DNA from: Minisyncoccota bacterium | GTDB taxonomy: Bacteria > Patescibacteriota > Minisyncoccia > UBA6257 | Direction: 5' to 3' | DNA: 33,644 nucleotides | Assembly (NCBI GenBank): GCA_028695015.1 | Contig: JAQVJR010000001.1 | Span: forward strand, 1-33,644 | Shown here: in pieces, positions 10,374 to 25,112 of the stretch | Layout of the letters: each line of letters starts with the position of its first letter | Numbering within the stretch: the first letter of the stretch is position 1 | Made by a program: the position numbers and the translations under genes | Notes under the pieces: model-generated | Told to the model about the DNA's origin: nothing | Seen by the model: the letters and a program-made list of their open reading frames with translations, nothing else | Databases searched by the model: none

Positions 10374-11597
10374 TTATCCTGTAGGTAATCCTATTGGTGG
10401 TTCACTTTTTTTACTTAAAACTCTAGTTAAGGTTGGTGTCTTCATAGTCACTGCAGGAAAATGATAAATTGTTGCTAGTTCTTCTGTGGTTAAAATCATT
10501 GATTTTTTCTCTGGCTTTCTCTGAAGTGCTGCTTGATAAAACTTCCTTTTCTTCAAAAACAATTTTCTGGCCTGAAAAAACTTTGTTTTTAATTTTGTTG
10601 TTGTGTCTTTATTAATTTCAAAAGCATTTAAATCTTTAGAATTAAACTGTTTTAAATAAGCCATAAACCCTATGGCCTTAGATTCTTCAAATTCAGGACG
10701 AGGAGAAACATAAAGAACTCTAATACCAGTTTTAAATGATAATTGTCCCATCTTTTTTTCTATGGCCTGAATCTTTTCTTTATCTGACAAGGAAATTTCT
10801 GAAGAAGATTTTTCTTTTGCTTCTCCTTTTTCTGGCCAAACTGGTGGCTCTACTAATCCTACTAAAAGATTTCTAAAAAAAGCAATAACCCAATCTGTCC
10901 AAGTGATTTTTCCTTCTTCTTTTTTTCCTAATAACTTATTGATTTCTTTTTTACCTTCTTCGCTTAATTCCTTTTCCTCATCTTTAGATAAAGCTCTAAG
11001 CAAAATCTGAAAAATACACCATTCAGATCTTTCTAAAGTCCCAAGAGTTTCTGCTAAACTAGCAATAGGATCTATCCTCTTCTCTTCTTTTTTTTCTTCA
11101 AAAGCAGAGTAGGTTTTAATTGGATAACAATTAGACTTGCTTAAATTAATTTCCATGCCCCATAAATCATTATCCTTATTAGGTAAATTAGGGGCCACAC
11201 TTGCAAAATAATCTTCAATTTCCTTTATCTCTAATTCTGGATATTGAGAATAAAATTGAGAGATAACCAAATTCTTGTATTCTTGTGGTGTTCGAATAAT
11301 AAAATGCATTTCTCGATTAATGCCTACAATCTCTAAACACAAACAACCTTTTTCAATAACATTTAAGCTATTGAAAACCTGTTCAATAGATTTTGGAGTT
11401 TGTAAAATCTCACGATTAATCTTAACTTCTAAAACAGCCCAATCCTTAATAGCTTCTTTTTCTTTTTTAACTTCTGCCTTGTGTTTTTTTCTTAAATTAA
11501 TAAAAAATCCTCCTAAAAGGATAAATAATAGCAACCACCAAAAATCTTGAAAAATCGCTAAAATAAAAAACAAAACTTCTCTTATATAATAAGGCAT
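10374..11597 (-). CDS. N-terminally membrane-anchored protein of unknown function, probable partner of the adjacent ATPase
   Basis: N-terminal hydrophobic segment (FWWLLLFILLGGFFI) and large soluble domain; gene begins 1 nt from the stop of the upstream gene and lies 22 nt upstream of the ATPase. Confidence 0.7.
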   Translation of the reverse strand: MPYYIREVLFFILAIFQDFWWLLLFILLGGFFINLRKKHKAEVKKEKEAIKDWAVLEVKINREILQTPKSIEQVFNSLNVIEKGCLCLEIVGINREMHFIIRTPQEYKNLVISQFYSQYPELEIKEIEDYFASVAPNLPNKDNDLWGMEINLSKSNCYPIKTYSAFEEKKEEKRIDPIASLAETLGTLERSEWCIFQILLRALSKDEEKELSEEGKKEINKLLGKKEEGKITWTDWVIAFFRNLLVGLVEPPVWPEKGEAKEKSSSEISLSDKEKIQAIEKKMGQLSFKTGIRVLYVSPRPEFEESKAIGFMAYLKQFNSKDLNAFEINKDTTTKLKTKFFQARKLFLKKRKFYQAALQRKPEKKSMILTTEELATIYHFPAVTMKTPTLTRVLSKKSEPPIGLPTG

Positions 11598-15013: not shown

Positions 15014-16258
15014 TTAATTGTCGCTTATCTTCTTTTTCATTCTTCTTTGTAGTTTTTCTAATTTTCTGCGAATCATCAACTCAGAATCCCTAATAGCTTT
15101 TTTTAACTCTTCATTGATTTCTGCTTCTCTTTTAGATAAAGCTTCATAACCATCAAAATTAGCTATTATCCTTAAGGTTACTTTTCTTAAATTATTAAAA
15201 GCCTCAAAAAGAACCCTTCTTACCTCTTTAGAATCTTTATTTAATTCCCTTTCCAAGGAATCTATTTTTGCCAAATATTTTCGGCGCATGATAAAAACAA
15301 TGATAATCCAAGAAACAATTAAAGCTAATATCATCACCATCATACAATTGCATATACTTATCTTCCCTGTCTCTTTTATTTCTTCTGTTTTTTCTTCTGC
15401 TATTATCGGTTCTTCTGTTTCTGATATTCCTAATTCTTTAACCTGAACTCGGAAACGAGAAATTTCACCCCAACCATATTGATTTTTTAACTGAACATTA
15501 AAATACCAAATACCATCTCCTAAATTAGTCACGCTCTTGCTCTTTATTGGCGGAGCATAGCTTATAGTCGGAGTTGCTCCTGAAGATTTGCTAATAGAAA
15601 GCCTGACTTCTGTAATGTCACTTGTTAAATCCCAAGAAAATTCAGCTGTTGTTTCACTATACCATTCACTAGGATTAGGATGAGTTGAAGAATAAATCAA
15701 AGGAGCTTTTGGTATTTTTCCTTTTTCCGGAGCTTTTGTTGTTGTAGTTGTGATTGGCGCCCCAGTTATATTATAGCTAGCACTACCTAATCCCTCTAAG
15801 ATATTTGTCCCTAAGCCATCATTAGCTAAAATTGAACCTGAAGCCATGCGCAGATTAACTGTGCCTTGAGCTTTTGGAGAAAAAACTATATCAATAATTT
15901 TCCCCCCACTGCCTCTATAACCTGGATCAAATACAGCACCTTCTAAATCTATTGTTTCATTTGTATTAGAAAAAGATGGTTGTTGAACCCAAAAATTAAT
16001 AATTGATTCAACTTGGGATAAAGAAGAAACTTGTAATAAATTCTTTGGAAAAGTGATTTTCCCAGAAACAGCATTCATGGCTTGAGCTGTACTAGAAACA
16101 TAAACAGAAATAGTAAATGGTTTTCCAATTGCATAAGTCCCAGAAGAAGGAGAAAAATACAAACTAGCTGCATCAGCTGTTTGAATAAAAAGCATAAAAA
16201 TACCTAATATGAATAGGCTAAAACAAAATTTAAATATGGTTTTGGAAAATTTTTCCAT
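15014..16258 (-). CDS. Secreted, membrane-anchored cohesin-like protein with cytoplasmic coiled-coil tail
   Basis: Signal peptide; cohesin-like segment SLYFSPSSGTYAIGKPFTISVYVSSTAQAMNAVSGKITFPKNLLQVSSL...LEGAVFDPGYRGSGGKIIDIVFSPKAQGTVNL; later TM (MVMILALIVSWIIIVFIM) and a charged helical C-terminus. Confidence 0.75.
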   Translation of the reverse strand: MEKFSKTIFKFCFSLFILGIFMLFIQTADAASLYFSPSSGTYAIGKPFTISVYVSSTAQAMNAVSGKITFPKNLLQVSSLSQVESIINFWVQQPSFSNTNETIDLEGAVFDPGYRGSGGKIIDIVFSPKAQGTVNLRMASGSILANDGLGTNILEGLGSASYNITGAPITTTTTKAPEKGKIPKAPLIYSSTHPNPSEWYSETTAEFSWDLTSDITEVRLSISKSSGATPTISYAPPIKSKSVTNLGDGIWYFNVQLKNQYGWGEISRFRVQVKELGISETEEPIIAEEKTEEIKETGKISICNCMMVMILALIVSWIIIVFIMRRKYLAKIDSLERELNKDSKEVRRVLFEAFNNLRKVTLRIIANFDGYEALSKREAEINEELKKAIRDSELMIRRKLEKLQRRMKKKISDN

Positions 16259-16282
16259 ACTTAAGCCCTTAAAACTCCTTTA

Positions 16283-17203
16283 TTAATTCTTTTTATCTAA
16301 TATTCTTGTTTTTCGTAATATTAAGAACATAATCACTATTAAAATTATAACCCAATTTTCCCATAATTCATACCATTTGATTGGATTTCTTGGCTCTGTC
16401 ACAACTATTCTCTCATTACCTTCATTATCCACAGCCTTAATATAGATATAGCTTCTTAAATCCTGGTCTTTTAAGATATAAGGGCTAATAACTGTTATCC
16501 ATTTATTCTTTTCAATTTTAGAAATCTCTATCTTACGATTTGATTCGTAAATCTGATAATAAGCTATGCCTGAACTTTTATCTTGAGTGGCAAAAGCTAT
16601 AAACCACTTACCTCCAAAAACAATTGGGTCATTAGCTAATTCAGGAATAAATACTTCTGGTGGCTCTGTATCTTTTTTTGTCTCTATTGAAAAGGGTATT
16701 GCTTTATCACTAACAATAACTTCTAAGGGAGTAACTATAGTCTGTGTCACTGTGCCCTGACCATCATTTAATAAAACTCTTGCCTGCTGAATTTCTATAT
16801 CCCCTTGTCCTAATTTTCGGGAAAAACCCTTAAAACTAAAAAGGAATCCATTTTGTTCTGTATAGCCACCAGGAATAATTCCAGAAAACCTAATCTCATT
16901 CTTATCTTCATTAAAAATAGGCCTTTCTGCCCATAAACTAATAATTGTACTACCATCACTTACTCCTTGTATTTCTAAAAGACCTTCTGGAATCTTTATT
17001 ATTCCTTCTAAAGCATTGATTTCTTCTTGCTCTGTATCAATAAAGAAATTAATTAAAACAAATTGATCTTGTTTAATTTCTAAACTGTTTGGTTCAAAAT
17101 ACAACTTAGCTGCCTTAACTGAAAACAAAGGCAATAAATTCCAAATAATTAAAAATATTATCAGAAACTTTTTAATTTTAAATTGTGATTTTGAATTTTG
17201 CAT
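16283..17203 (-). CDS. Secreted, C-terminally membrane-anchored cohesin-like protein (start likely at 17203 rather than 17227)
   Basis: KLYFEPNSLEIKQDQFVLINFFIDTEQEEINALEGIIKIPEGLLEIQG... similar in layout to the 15014-16258 product; C-terminal TM WVIILIVIMFLIL. Internal Met (MQNSKSQFKIKKFL) removes the overlap with the upstream gene. Confidence 0.72.
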   Translation of the reverse strand: MQNSKSQFKIKKFLIIFLIIWNLLPLFSVKAAKLYFEPNSLEIKQDQFVLINFFIDTEQEEINALEGIIKIPEGLLEIQGVSDGSTIISLWAERPIFNEDKNEIRFSGIIPGGYTEQNGFLFSFKGFSRKLGQGDIEIQQARVLLNDGQGTVTQTIVTPLEVIVSDKAIPFSIETKKDTEPPEVFIPELANDPIVFGGKWFIAFATQDKSSGIAYYQIYESNRKIEISKIEKNKWITVISPYILKDQDLRSYIYIKAVDNEGNERIVVTEPRNPIKWYELWENWVIILIVIMFLILRKTRILDKKN

Positions 17204-17214
17204 TTTCACTTTTA

Positions 17215-18285
17215 TTAACCAGTCCAATAATATGCCATGATACTAAAATCCACTAAATCAATCTTACCATCACCATTCAAGCGCTCTTGTTCAATCTTAG
17301 CAAACTCAGCACTAAGTACTTTCTTATACCAATAAGCAGCAATAGAAAAATCCACTAAATTAACCTTGCCATCGCAATTCAAATCTGCTTTACCACATTT
17401 CTGAACTTCTTTGATAACATTTCTCGTGCCCACTAAAAAACTTACTGCTTGACTAAAAGAACTTATTTCATTTTCTTTAGCTGCTTTGGATTTTGTAAAG
17501 TGATCTCCATAATCAAGAACCTCAGTACCAAAATTATATAAATAAACCCCATCAGAATCTGATTCTGTATTAACAAAAATTTCCTCATCAGAAGATACTT
17601 GAATAGTTATATTTGCATTTGATAAAGATTGACCAAAAATAGCAATACTATCTCCTCTTTTTACTTCTTCCTTATCAACTTCAATTGTTGGTGCAATAAA
17701 AACACCAGAAACATTTGTAATCACTCCAAAAGTAACCCCCACTGGAAAAGTTAAAAGTGAAGACCTGTTCCCATATTTATCTTCACTATAAATAGAAAAA
17801 ATATAATTACCAGCAGAAATACCAGAGAGGCTCAAAGTAAAATTAGCATCACTACCAGCCATTACTGTTGCTGCTACCTGAGCGTCTTTTAATAAAGTTA
17901 CTGTACTTTTAGGATAAGCTTTACCAGTAAAATTTATTCTAGTTTCTGCTGGGGCCACATAACCGCCACCACCGCCTCCAGGAAAAGTTAAAGTCGTAGT
18001 GGTTGTTGTATAACATCCAGAAGTATCAAATTCATCACAAGCTGGACTACATTTTAAAACTCCAAGTGGGTAATTAAAATCTTGGCAGGTTTTTCCTGCC
18101 AAGTCTGTGCCATCACATACTTCATTATCGTCTTTTATATTATCCCCACAAATAGAAATCTTAATTGTTGTATGAATATGAAAATCTATTATTGTCTTTA
18201 TCTCAGCAAAAATAATACCTATTTGATAAAATAAAACAAAAGCTATAATTAAAAAAATAAGATTTTTGTAAGATAATCCTTGCAT
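17215..18285 (-). CDS. Secreted protein with Cys-rich module, Ig-like domains and C-terminal type I dockerin-like duplicated EF-hand
   Basis: C-terminal repeats KADLNCDGKVNLVDFSIAAYWYKK and ERLNGDGKIDLVDFSIMAYYWTG match the dockerin layout; CGDNIKDDNEVCDGTDLAGKTCQDF Cys-rich module; T-rich/G-rich linker TTTTTTLTFPGGGGGGY. Confidence 0.82.
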   Translation of the reverse strand: MQGLSYKNLIFLIIAFVLFYQIGIIFAEIKTIIDFHIHTTIKISICGDNIKDDNEVCDGTDLAGKTCQDFNYPLGVLKCSPACDEFDTSGCYTTTTTTLTFPGGGGGGYVAPAETRINFTGKAYPKSTVTLLKDAQVAATVMAGSDANFTLSLSGISAGNYIFSIYSEDKYGNRSSLLTFPVGVTFGVITNVSGVFIAPTIEVDKEEVKRGDSIAIFGQSLSNANITIQVSSDEEIFVNTESDSDGVYLYNFGTEVLDYGDHFTKSKAAKENEISSFSQAVSFLVGTRNVIKEVQKCGKADLNCDGKVNLVDFSIAAYWYKKVLSAEFAKIEQERLNGDGKIDLVDFSIMAYYWTG

Positions 18286-18309
18286 TCATCTCTTGTTTAT
18301 AGATTTAGA

Positions 18310-18906
18310 TTACTTTCTATCTATCTGAATCTTAAATTTCTTTTTTAAAATAGAAATTAAGGTTACTAAGAATATCATCGCTAAAATAATTGTATCCCAA
18401 GGATGATATTTAGCATACAAACTTATAAAGCGATAATAAATTCCTTGAAAGATATTAGCTGGAATAACAGAAAAATAAAGCTTTGTCGCTGCTGCCACAC
18501 CAATTGAAGTCATGCCTTGCTCAAGTTCTTGAATTGGTGAAGCACTTAAAAAAGCAAAATAATCTCCAGGCTTAACTCCTTTTACTGGTAAAATAATTTT
18601 AACCTGAACTAATTCACTTTCTCCAGGTTCTAAATAAAATTTCTTTGGTTCAAAATTAATCCATTTTGAATCTGGAATCATTTCAACAACATCCATTTTC
18701 CCTTCAACAGCAATTTGATAATTTGAAGGTTCATCTCCAGTATTCCTAACCACCACTGATGGGATTTCATAAATAGAGCCTGGTCTTAAAGGCTCATCCA
18801 TTTGTATTTTTCCAGTACCCACGCCAACACCTACCCTACCCAAAATCATCAAGGGCAAAGTCAATATTGTAAATATAACAATTAATAAAGTAAATTTATT
18901 ATTCAT
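18310..18906 (-). CDS. Secreted Ig-like protein with C-terminal TM (layout similar to DUF916-type proteins)
   Basis: Signal peptide; SVVVRNTGDEPSNYQIAVEGKMDVVEMIPDSKWINFEPKKFYLEPGESELVQVKIILP; C-terminal TM TIILAMIFLVTLISILKKKFK. Confidence 0.6.
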   Translation of the reverse strand: MNNKFTLLIVIFTILTLPLMILGRVGVGVGTGKIQMDEPLRPGSIYEIPSVVVRNTGDEPSNYQIAVEGKMDVVEMIPDSKWINFEPKKFYLEPGESELVQVKIILPVKGVKPGDYFAFLSASPIQELEQGMTSIGVAAATKLYFSVIPANIFQGIYYRFISLYAKYHPWDTIILAMIFLVTLISILKKKFKIQIDRK

Positions 18907-18945
18907 AAATTATATAAAACCCTAATAAACTGATAATCTTTTATA

Positions 18946-19469
18946 TTATCCTCCCCAAGCAGCTTGTACAGTTACTGTTGCGCTTTGTTGAACTGTTTCT
19001 TCACTAGTTGTTGGAGTAGTAATTTCTAACCCAAAAAAACACTTCCTGAAGCTATTAAACCAGTCTCTAAAGTGGTGTATGTCGTAGTCAAGGCGGTATA
19101 TGAAGCAGGCTCTGTTGCCCCATTTGTTGCTTTACCAAATTTATGCACATATTGATCTTCACCAGATGATCCTTCTAGCTGCCAACTAGCAGTATGGTCT
19201 CCTTTAATCTCTAAATTTGTTACCACTGATCCAACTTCAGCTTCTATATTTTTAACCCCATTACCTTCATTTATTACATTAAATGATTTTTTACTAGTGT
19301 TTAAAGGCATTGTCCCATAAGAAAAACTTGTTGGCGTAAGCGTAACTTGTACATCTCCTATTGTAACAGTAGCAGTTACAGTGCTTGTATCTGCCAAACC
19401 AATATTACCAATAATTATCCCAACAAAAGCCAAGGCACAAATAATAGATAATTTGCTTTTTGTATTCAT
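18946..19469 (-). CDS. Secreted W-x-L-containing surface protein; frame disrupted at T7 (19033-19039). Annotated ORF stops at 19026, a -1 shift continues to 18946
   Basis: ORF 19026-19469 ends ...GLIASGSVFLG*. In the -1 frame the sequence continues GLEITTPTTSEETVQQSATVTVQAAWGG*, which aligns without gaps to the 671-aa paralog ...IAPSSAMEFDLQITTPNSSQAG. Confidence 0.75.
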
Positions 19470-19540
19470 ATGAATTAATTTTTTTATAATTTATATTTTT
19501 TAAATTCAATTTTTCGACCAATTATTTCTTTATACATTTT

Positions 19541-19569
19541 ATTATACCTAATCTTCTCTTGTCAAGCAA
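19541..19569 (-). promoter_or_regulatory. Candidate promoter TTGCTT-17-TATAAT for the small W-x-L gene
   Basis: Minus strand TTGCTT (19564-19569), 17-nt spacer, TATAAT (19541-19546). Confidence 0.45.
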
Positions 19570-19601
19570 ATAAATTTTTTGTATTTATGTAATTTAAAAC
19601 T

Positions 19602-21617
19602 CTATGACTCTGTTGCTAAAATTGTTATTGGCACACTGACCCCAGTTCCTGCTTGTGAAGAATTAGGAGTGGTGATTTGTAAATCAAATTCCATTGCACT
19701 ACTAGGCGCAATATTAGTGTCTAAGGTTTTTTTATTAACTGAATAATCTAAAACCGTCCAGTTGCCTCTTGGATCTCCAGATTCATCAAGTTGTACAAAC
19801 TCATGAGTATATTTTAGATTTCCAGCAGATAAAGTCCATTCTTCATCACCAATGGTATTATCACCATAAATATATAAATCAACAGACACATTTGAATTAT
19901 TAATTACTGCTATTCCATAAGTTCCTGTTTCAGGTACTTGTGTAGAATCAATGGCTCTTTTTTTCCCACCAGCTGGCATTAAGCCATAATCAAATACAGC
20001 AGGACTAACACTGATATCAATAGAAACCACTAACTGAATAGTTGTTGATCCAGAAATAGCTAAAGGAGTTGATTGTAAGCTCACATCTCCTTCAGAAACT
20101 GTAATATCACTAGGACTTGTTATCTGAATTTTTATTGTTTCATTATCTAGGGCCCCAGAGCCAACATCTAATTGGATATAGACACATATTTGAGAATTAC
20201 TAACATTCATTGTGCCTGATACGGTTGCCTTAGATGAAGAAAAATTAACTCCATTAGTATTAAAAGCTGTGGCATCAACAGGAATAGAAGAAGCTTCACA
20301 AACAGCTTGTTGTTTGTAAAAAAGCTTAACATTAGAAAGATTAGCATCTGCATCTACTGTACCTGTTTCAGAGATAATAATTTTACTCACTGTCTGATTT
20401 GAATCACTAGTAAAAGTAAAAGCCCCACCAACATAATTATTAGTTGAAGGAATATCCATTACAGAAACATGATTTCCAGTAACACCAACAGTCAAAGTTT
20501 TATCAGCAGATATTGGAGTATAAGTAACAACAATTAATCCTTGACCACCAGCACCTGCTCTATCGCAATAATTCGATCCTGGTGCTCCACCACATCCTCC
20601 ACCACCACCACCATAAGCTCCACCATCTCCACCATTTCCTGGGTAGCCACCATTAGCTCTTTGACCACCACCTCCTCCACCACCACCACTTGGGCCATAA
20701 GTGGCTGAATTCCAAGCACTAACATTACCAGAATCAATTGATCCTTGACCACCAGCCCCTGAAGTACCACCACTAGTATTATCACCTCCTCCACCACCAC
20801 CTCCAGCACCCTTACCCACAGCACCAGAACTTCCATCAGATTCATCACCTCCTGCGCCTCCTCCTGAGCCATCATATCCTGCACCACCAGCACCACCAAT
20901 TGCTCTATTTGCTGTCTTTCCATCTGTGGATTGTCCACCATTAGCTCCACCACCACCAGAACCTCCATCACCCCCTGAATTCGAAGCTTCTTCACTTGTT
21001 CTCCCTACACCACTAGGACCAGCAGAACCTCCACCACCTCCTCCAGGAATACGAACAGCAGTTCTAGTCTTCCCACCATCACCTCCACTAAATTTTATAT
21101 CTCCTATTGAAGCTACTCCACCAACACCACCTGCATTATTCCCATCTACTGCATTTTTTCCAGCACCACAAGAAAGAACTGTATTTCCATTATCATCTTT
21201 TAAAAATGTATCTTGTTCTGAACCTCCTGCAGCTACAGCAATACTATGATTACCACTTGATAAAGATTGATTAGAGATAGAGGCATAAGAACCACCACCT
21301 CCTCCACCACCACCTTTTGTAGTAGCATTTCCATAAATACTACCATTGCCTCCTGCACCAATACATTCAATTTTATTATTAGAATCATCCCAATCAACTG
21401 GTACATTCCATGTACTCCCAGAAGTAATAAATCCTCGACATTGACCATTACCAATATCACTTCCAAAACCACAAACAGTTTGAGCTTCAGCTAATTGAGT
21501 CTTAGATCCGATAACAGAATCATTCCAAATCTGGAGAATGTGAAAAACTCCACCTTGGATTAAAGCGAAAATAATTAAAAAAACAATAAATCTATTAATA
21601 TCTTTATAAAAATTCAT
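19602..21617 (-). CDS. Large secreted glycine-rich protein with C-terminal W-x-L-like paralogous domain
   Basis: Signal/TM N-terminus; GGGGGGGGSYAS... Gly-rich region; C-terminal VSPAVFDYGLMP...GDEEWTLSAGNLKYTHEF...FDLQITTP similar to the 147-aa neighbour. Confidence 0.85.
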   Translation of the reverse strand: MNFYKDINRFIVFLIIFALIQGGVFHILQIWNDSVIGSKTQLAEAQTVCGFGSDIGNGQCRGFITSGSTWNVPVDWDDSNNKIECIGAGGNGSIYGNATTKGGGGGGGGSYASISNQSLSSGNHSIAVAAGGSEQDTFLKDDNGNTVLSCGAGKNAVDGNNAGGVGGVASIGDIKFSGGDGGKTRTAVRIPGGGGGGSAGPSGVGRTSEEASNSGGDGGSGGGGANGGQSTDGKTANRAIGGAGGAGYDGSGGGAGGDESDGSSGAVGKGAGGGGGGGDNTSGGTSGAGGQGSIDSGNVSAWNSATYGPSGGGGGGGGQRANGGYPGNGGDGGAYGGGGGGCGGAPGSNYCDRAGAGGQGLIVVTYTPISADKTLTVGVTGNHVSVMDIPSTNNYVGGAFTFTSDSNQTVSKIIISETGTVDADANLSNVKLFYKQQAVCEASSIPVDATAFNTNGVNFSSSKATVSGTMNVSNSQICVYIQLDVGSGALDNETIKIQITSPSDITVSEGDVSLQSTPLAISGSTTIQLVVSIDISVSPAVFDYGLMPAGGKKRAIDSTQVPETGTYGIAVINNSNVSVDLYIYGDNTIGDEEWTLSAGNLKYTHEFVQLDESGDPRGNWTVLDYSVNKKTLDTNIAPSSAMEFDLQITTPNSSQAGTGVSVPITILATES

Positions 21618-21657
21618 TTACCTGATAATGCTTTTTTAAAAAACTATTTAAAAAAAT

Positions 21658-21831
21658 TTATAATCCGATTTGAATAGTCACTTTTAAAAAATAAGCTGCT
21701 AATAATAGAAAAATCAAGGTCGCAAAAACTCCAGCAATAAAACCCGATAATGAAGAAGCTAAAGTTTTTCCTATCTTGAATTTAAAATCCCGAGGCTCTT
21801 TAGAAATAAAATCTCTTGTTAATTTTTGCAT
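21658..21831 (-). CDS. Small single-TM protein, 57 aa
   Basis: Manual translation: MQKLTRDFISKEPRDFKFKIGKTLASSLSGFIAGVFATLIFLLLAAYFLKVTIQIGL*. Below the length cut of the supplied ORF track. Confidence 0.5.
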   Translation of the reverse strand: MQKLTRDFISKEPRDFKFKIGKTLASSLSGFIAGVFATLIFLLLAAYFLKVTIQIGL

Positions 21832-21935
21832 TTTTTTAAATTATTAAAGTTATCAAATTACTCTTAATGTCAACCTTAATAATATTATACCTAAATACAA
21901 AATTAACCTCAAGCAAATAATATTAAATAAAAAAG

Positions 21936-22006
21936 TACCCCCAGGAAGAATCGAACTTCCATCAATTGCTTAAAAGGCAACTGCTTTTCCATTAAGCTAT
22001 GGGGGC
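21936..22006 (-). tRNA. tRNA-Lys (anticodon UUU)
   Basis: Minus strand GCCCCCATAGCTTAATGGAAAAGCAGTTGCCTTTTAAGCAATTGATGGAAGTTCGATTCTTCCTGGGGGTA; acceptor, D, anticodon (GTTGC CTTTTAA GCAAT) and T stems all pair; CCA not encoded. Confidence 0.95.
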
Positions 22007-23891: not shown

Positions 23892-25112
23892 GTCTTTGAT
23901 GCAGCGAACCGAGCGGCCATCCCCCCGGTGAGTAGGCCAGCCTAATCAATAAGCATTGCTTTCAATAGACAAATAATTAGTCCACTGGCCAGAGACTGTA
24001 GAAGTCCAGTAGGTTCCGTAACTGTCAACACCGCTGAACGACCCATTGTTATAATTCCGAGTGCCACCTACTGTCAATTTAAGCGGACTTTCAAAAGCGC
24101 CTTGTGCATTACTCGGAACCCAAGAACGAGATTCATTACTCCATTCGTCTAAAGTAGGGATTCTCCACCCAAGAGGACATGGGTTATCAATTCCACTCGC
24201 TTCTTGCCAAAGATGATGGTTTTGTGGATTTCTCCAATCATAAGGAGAACCCGTTCCTGTAATGAAATTACTATGCCCAGGAGTATCAGAGCTTGAACGA
24301 GTAGAAGTTGTCCCACTAGTTCTTGATTGATGTCCATCATCTAATCTTCCCCATTGAAATAAATCTCCATAGGCATTTGTATCAGTAGATGAAATAGCTA
24401 CTCTAGAAGCTCCTAAGTTTCTATCCATCCAGCATTTGCCTTGACTTTCTACTGTGCCATAGGTTACAGAAGATCCTTTATATGTGAAAGTAATATTATC
24501 TCCGCATTGCCAGCCAACAGGAGGACCACCAGATGCAAAAGATTCAAAACAATTTGTATTTAGAGAAATGGGGGCTAAAGATAAATTTGTTCCTAATTCA
24601 TAAAGAGAATCAATATTACCCCCATCTTTGCTAGTAACATCTCCTGAGCCTCCTTCAGAATAATACTCACTTTCCATATTAGCCGTTAGCTTAAAGGTCT
24701 TTCCTAAAGAATCTACTGTATATACATAATAAAGCCCTTTGTCTTTATTACTAACCGGATCTATAGGTAAATTACTTAAGGAGGTAAAGCCACTCATTTT
24801 TGTAAAATCAATGGGGATCCATCCAGAACCATCTATTAACTGGGTAGTAGCACTAGAGCCTTGACCTGTACTACATTGAATTCCTTGAACATGTGAATAT
24901 GTTTGATCATTTTCTCCAATAAATTCTTCTGGTTTTTTAACTATAAACAAGGCAATAGCATTTCTTAAAGCATTTAAATCAGAAATTCTACTAGAATCTC
25001 TGGCCTTAGCTAAGAGCTCTGTAGGATTAATGACTAAAACAATAGTAGTAGAAAGAACAGCTAAGATACCAATAACAATAAGTAATTCTAATAAAGTAAA
25101 CCCTTTTTTCAT
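23892..25112 (-). CDS. Type IV prepilin-like protein fused to a Fib_succ_major-like domain; in-frame TGA at 23946-23948 separates the last 18 codons (ORF-track end is 23946)
   Basis: Prepilin motif KKGFTLLELLIVIGILAVLSTTIVLVI; C-terminus GKCWMDRNLGASRVA...CPLGWRIPTLDEWSNE...YWTSTVSGQWTNYLSIESNAY*LGWPTHRGDGRSVRCIKD*, same frame across the first stop. Confidence 0.8.

Follow-up and report, generated by a model that had tools for sequence, protein, structure and literature searches.

A conserved cohesin–dockerin and WxL-cluster-like gene block in Patescibacteria: a candidate surface-display module

In Firmicutes, the commonest WxL cluster comprises one WxLIP and two WxL proteins as its partners, one large and one small (PMC10599100). 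Cohesin and dockerin domains are also found outside cellulosomes; ANME archaea carry many non-cellulosomal dockerin and cohesin proteins (PMC9012536). In CPR bacteria, cohesin and dockerin genes have earlier been read as a cellulosome (Shapirobacterales; PMC9123182), and the envelope proteins essential to the epibiont S. epibionticum include one with a dockerin domain, SEML1_0315 (PMC10633639). No description of the gene order reported here was found in a literature search that excluded most subscription journals and all preprints, and the only paper found to pair Patescibacteria with WxL was an unrelated one.

The gene block and its flanks

The block lies in a stretch of 33,644 nucleotides (the window) from a genome of 516,567 bp in 8 contigs, with an estimated completeness of 99.8%. 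By both DNA and protein the nearest kin of the window are Parcubacteria-type Patescibacteria, and the source organism is a tiny, probably host-dependent bacterium. The open reading frames had been assigned correctly in coordinates and strand by the initial annotation, and are closely spaced. The core block consists of six genes, listed here in order of transcription with a flanking gene and associated features:

21658–21831, minus strand: 57-aa small TM protein (flanking gene), between secD and tRNA-Lys; also at 10431–10604, minus strand, in locus L184
19602–21617, minus strand: large secreted protein, 671 aa; a signal peptide, a Gly-rich region and, at the C-terminus, a beta domain bearing the conserved W-T-L motif
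19536–19565, minus strand: promoter-like site TTGACA-18-TAAAAT (11/12), upstream of the small-protein gene
19026–19469, minus strand: small secreted protein, 147-aa ORF; same W-T-L domain as the large protein
18946–19023, minus strand: C-terminal end of the small protein in the next frame, ITTPTTSEETVQQSATVTVQAAWGG, followed by a stop
18310–18906, minus strand: WxLIP-like protein, 198 aa; a signal peptide, a single Ig-like (PGBD-like) domain and a C-terminal TM helix at residues 169–187
17215–18285, minus strand: dockerin protein, 356 aa; a signal peptide and Cys-rich N-terminus, then a Gly-rich linker, two Ig-like domains and the dockerin at the C-terminus
17218–17391, minus strand: dockerin domain; two DxNxDGxVxxxDFSI-type loops, with Arg in place of Asp at position 1 of loop 2
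16283–17227, minus strand: cohesin protein 1, 314 aa; signal/anchor, cohesin (about 16709–17110), Ig-like domain, C-terminal TM helix
15014–16258, minus strand: cohesin protein 2, 414 aa; signal peptide, cohesin (about 15761–16168), Ig/Fn3-like domain, TM helix (about 15290–15346)

The gene spacing fits an operon. The TTG start of cohesin 1 overlaps the dockerin gene, with an alternative ATG possible at 17203, and in relatives' loci the two cohesin genes usually overlap. The longest gap in relatives is that between the large and small secreted-protein genes (median 102 bp). The promoter-like site in the window is weak on its own, since 45 such sites were found overall against 40.4 expected.

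Two of the flanking elements had been drawn into the cluster and are now set apart from it. The 57-aa TM protein is encoded by a separate gene: in a cluster-free genome of the same genus (G002) it is all that lies between tRNA-Lys and secD, and a third genome (G001) has neither this gene nor the block at the site. The identity of secD and secF in the window is certain by Pfam and their adjacency to the block is real, but the functional link once drawn from it fails: secD lies downstream of the module in only two of 80 loci besides the window (L099 and L146), and secD–secF were rejected as partners.

Pfam also ruled out the labels pilB and pilC for two genes downstream of the module, of which one encodes a HerA/T4SS-coupling-like ATPase and the other has no Pfam match. 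Near them Pfam identified a sigma-70-region-4/HARE-HTH protein, DnaG, a sigma-70 factor and a Mur ligase. Another gene near the block (23946–25112, minus strand) encodes a pilin-like secreted protein, in which Pfam finds a Fib_succ_major domain as well as a prokaryotic N-terminal methylation motif. Matches in the window to Pfam EssA, DUF6377, HAP2 and similar families were scattered and under cut-off, and were set aside. The block edges showed no convincing integration-site repeats and its base composition no mark of foreign origin; a rise in GC at 20–21 kb is due to the Gly-rich coding region there.

Domain identities of the six products

The dockerin, originally called by motif reading, was borne out: the last 61 aa of the protein match the solved dockerin 2y3n_B (E 6e-7). 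Pfam found an Ig domain in the window protein and scored Dockerin_1 just below threshold (22.6 bits against a cut-off of 22.9), while 38/43 relatives match the latter model. The duplicated calcium loop and F-hand motif of type I dockerins are present. Among 43 aligned sequences, positions 1, 3, 5 and 12 of loop 1 are almost invariant (D, N, D and D) and a DFSI helix start follows both loops; at position 1 of loop 2, 20 of these sequences, the window protein included, have Arg, Lys or a different residue in place of Asp. The Cys motif is common to 37/43 and the Gly run to 40/43. An AlphaFold2 model of the protein (pLDDT 88.5) has three helices in the dockerin part; when the whole protein was used in a fold search, Ig-domain matches swamped the result. 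Hydropathy indicated no C-terminal TM helix.

In some relatives a dockerin terminates very large surface proteins of about 1,470 to >2,300 aa (L073, 3879–8429; L080, 2–7060; L145, with a dockerin ORF of 1473 aa), one of them with fibronectin-like repeats by eye. These are a hint as to the anchor's cargo in other lineages.

Neither cohesin protein of the window matches Pfam Cohesin, so the evidence for their identity had to come from relatives and folds. The Pfam model matches 6/17 members of the cohesin 1 set (best 4.8e-6) and 4/21 of the cohesin 2 set (best 1.1e-6), and profiles of the cohesins match solved cohesins weakly (E 0.0012). An AlphaFold2 model of cohesin 1 (pLDDT 92.1) was compared with the PDB using Foldseek; its best 34 matches are all cohesin entries except the Bacillus cereus pilin BcpA. 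A cohesin–Fn3 double module ranks first, single cohesins reach E-values down to 4e-8, and the non-cellulosomal cohesin of Archaeoglobus fulgidus gives a TM-score of 0.79 by target length. The profile of cohesin 2 aligns with that of cohesin 1 (hhalign E 6e-44). The cohesin fold is thus found in cohesin 1 by model and in cohesin 2 by profile kinship, which upholds the original calls. Each protein has a signal/anchor and a C-terminal TM helix by hydropathy. Some loci (L133, L126, L148, L157 and L159) contain additional cohesin-2-type genes, giving three or four cohesin proteins per locus.

After its TM helix, cohesin 2 continues for about 90 charged, helical-looking residues, which from the sequence are predicted to form a cytoplasmic helical tail. 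A similar tail is kept in most relatives read, which could speak for a sensor, in which the tail reads dockerin occupancy of the cohesins and display is secondary. We consider this improbable: Pfam detects no known signalling domain, and the tail is shorter in some relatives.

The product of 18310–18906 had been described as an Ig-like TM protein; both features hold, and its identity can now be corrected to WxLIP-like. A profile built from it and its relatives matches the solved EfmWxLIP1 across both domains of the latter (E 2e-5), and Pfam WxLIP_PGBD matches 8/14 family members, though not the window protein alone. A WxLIP PGBD domain with a C-terminal TM helix is indicated by the family profile, Pfam matches of members and hydropathy. 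The second domain, HBD, is absent from the window protein, and long forms of ~300 aa occur in relatives. Its kinship to WxLIP is remote.

The two secreted proteins had been described as W-x-L proteins. The motif stands: in an alignment of their C-terminal domains W75-T76-L77 is nearly invariant. Membership of the WxL family found no support in Pfam and PDB searches. The Pfam WxL model was above cut-off in none of 61 genomes, with a positive Lactococcus lactis control, and in none of 13 members of the secreted domain, for which a PDB search also gave no match; the domain carries a single W-T-L motif in place of the dual W-x-L motif. The large protein has no Pfam or PDB match, and its sole hydrophobic segment is N-terminal; by hydropathy neither secreted protein has a C-terminal TM anchor. 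A frameshift at seven consecutive T (19033–19039) breaks the reading frame of the small protein, and the C-terminus encoded in the next frame matches the C-termini of homologues in the secreted-domain alignment. The frameshift may be genuine loss or an artefact of sequencing or assembly; intact small homologues in relatives have 173–200 aa and adjoin the WxLIP-like gene.

Conservation, exchange and loss of the block

A single scan of a genome collection returned 177 relatives of the dockerin protein, from which 80 loci were kept; the records come from many Parcubacteria-type lineages, with one labelled Methylomirabilis, perhaps by binning error. Since the loci were chosen by the dockerin, the cohesin and WxLIP counts are independent of that choice. 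By profiles, at least one cohesin occurs within four genes downstream of the dockerin in 77/80 loci and at least two in 72/80; the order dockerin, cohesin 1, cohesin 2 is kept in 72/80 loci of Parcubacteria and relatives, and most departures from it are at contig ends. The number of relatives and the conserved order place the six-gene cluster beyond chance: it is real, and the two membrane-anchored cohesins with one dockerin protein proposed originally form a conserved unit. A WxLIP-like gene is present within five genes upstream of the dockerin in 50/80 loci, and no recognisable one is nearby in the other 30, in some owing to a contig end. In a genome of the same family (G007), the module lies at 1–4.7 kb of a 13,823-bp contig (JAAZNP010000014.1). 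In 81/287 genomes of the phylum a cohesin-1-type protein was matched at E ≤ 1e-5; the weaker of these matches may be other cohesins.

These surveys bear on whether the block could form a degradative complex of the cellulosome kind, which shares its domain pair and has a published precedent in the Shapirobacterales reading. Such a complex would have several dockerin-bearing enzymes and a multi-cohesin scaffoldin. Here there are 0–5 dockerin matches per genome, usually the module's own, a number too small for a cellulosome; each protein has one cohesin, no multi-cohesin scaffoldin occurs in the window, and Pfam finds no enzyme domain in the cluster. This reading, already set aside in the initial annotation, is very improbable.

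The upstream part of the block is more variable. Short WxLIP-like proteins (<270 aa) occur with W-T-L-type secreted proteins in 11/11 loci, and long ones with another, Cys-containing secreted type in 14/14. The pairing thus holds in 25/25 loci (Fisher p 2e-7, a value weakened by kinship among loci); on the dockerin tree, 3/3 independent contrasts agree, which is not significant (sign test p 0.25). The dockerin tree does not follow the split in display types, with a minimum of 11 type changes, a number probably inflated by the many weak forks in the tree. In the window itself, the dockerin clusters with those of its own family (L111 and L146; support 96/92), whereas its WxLIP-like protein has its closest counterparts, at 54% identity, in L106 and L161, from other lineages, and matches none of the WxLIP-like proteins of its own family. 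The display part exists in at least two types, which appear to be exchanged as a unit atop a conserved anchor part; the support comes from the pairing of types and from the discordance between the window's own dockerin and WxLIP-like proteins. That swapping this cassette, a secreted pair with its own WxLIP-like clamp, changes the partner cell to which the bacterium attaches, across much of Patescibacteria, is a tentative and rather doubtful extension.

The closest relative of the window, a genome of the same genus (G003), has flanks 93–96% identical, and between them the entire 7-kb block is missing (window 14979 to about 21968), tRNA-Lys being followed directly by secD. Its estimated completeness is 100%. 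Searches of this genome and of the other two of the genus (G001 and G002) gave no dockerin or cohesin match at other places, and the dockerin protein has no match in 36/61 sampled relatives. The block is thus dispensable. The difference between the window and its closest relative would by itself fit either gain in the window's line or loss in others; in a sister-genus genome (G004), the anchor part occurs at the same place, before secD–secF, and loss in the block-free relatives is therefore favoured.

The adjoining tRNA-Lys(UUU) gene (21935–22006, minus strand) is unlike the tRNA-Lys at the same place in four family members. Its closest copies found in the order are 88–89% identical and belong to other families, and the DNA beyond it is 93–96% identical to the closest relative. 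The tRNA gene looks to have been replaced from outside.

Dispensability also weighs on a structural role, in which the module would fasten a surface layer, or envelope proteins of another kind, to the membrane, serving cell structure and not adhesion. Both the TM-anchored cohesins and the Ig-like domains fit what is typical of envelope proteins, and the dockerin model weakly matched S-layer proteins among many Ig-fold matches. Such a scaffold would nevertheless be missing from the closest relative and, by dockerin matches, from much of the sample, and its display types vary; we regard it as unlikely.

Proposed function and comparison with known systems

Display at the cell surface, as originally suggested, remains the best reading. 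A block with these domain identities, membrane anchors, conserved order and type pairing is probably a two-part surface-display module, in which a membrane-anchored cohesin–dockerin scaffold carries an exchangeable head resembling a WxL cluster. In the anchor part, two cohesins would be held in the cell membrane via their C-terminal TM helices and bind one dockerin-ended secreted protein, probably with calcium. Once bound, the dockerin protein would project its Ig-like domains and linker away from the cell, and cohesin 2 may report occupancy via its cytoplasmic tail. In the display part, the WxLIP-like TM protein would retain at the surface the large and small secreted proteins with their common C-terminal beta domain, by analogy with WxL clusters. 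As the secreted domain has no detectable WxL kinship, this clamp role is suggested by gene order and the kinship of the partner. Weighing against the module as proposed are the missing first Asp of dockerin loop 2, the broken small-protein frame in the window and the 30/80 loci where no WxLIP-like gene was recognised nearby.

The likely use of the module is to present adhesin-like proteins. That these attach the cell to a host or partner cell is a guess, consistent with the epibiotic life of known members of the phylum and with the essential dockerin-domain protein of S. epibionticum (PMC10633639), but set against the dispensability of the block within a genus. Host recognition and attachment in Patescibacteria are still poorly understood, and are usually ascribed to type IV pili. 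The analysis names six particular proteins, most of them small, whose gene order is conserved, and the proposed display module makes binding predictions: one dockerin with two cohesins, and each type of WxLIP-like protein with the secreted pair that belongs to it. Nearly identical genomes that differ in whether they carry the block offer a natural comparison.

SEML1_0315 of S. epibionticum, needed for epibiotic growth, is by description likewise a dockerin protein in a CPR bacterium. With the cellulosome the module shares cohesin and dockerin domains, but it differs in its lack of cluster enzymes and of a multi-cohesin scaffoldin, and in its few dockerins per genome; a cellulosome should not be the default reading of CPR cohesin and dockerin genes. 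Like the non-cellulosomal proteins of Archaeoglobus, Clostridium perfringens and ANME (PMC9012536), it has single cohesins and not scaffoldins. Unlike them, it has a fixed order of one dockerin and two TM-anchored cohesins, seen across many CPR lineages and coupled to a display head of WxL-like type. As in the WxL cluster of Firmicutes, large and small secreted proteins share a C-terminal domain and adjoin a TM-anchored, Ig-fold relative of WxLIP. In contrast to that cluster, the secreted domain is not Pfam WxL, the WxLIP-like protein of the window has a single Ig-like domain, and the WxLIP-like gene is followed by a dockerin and two cohesins.
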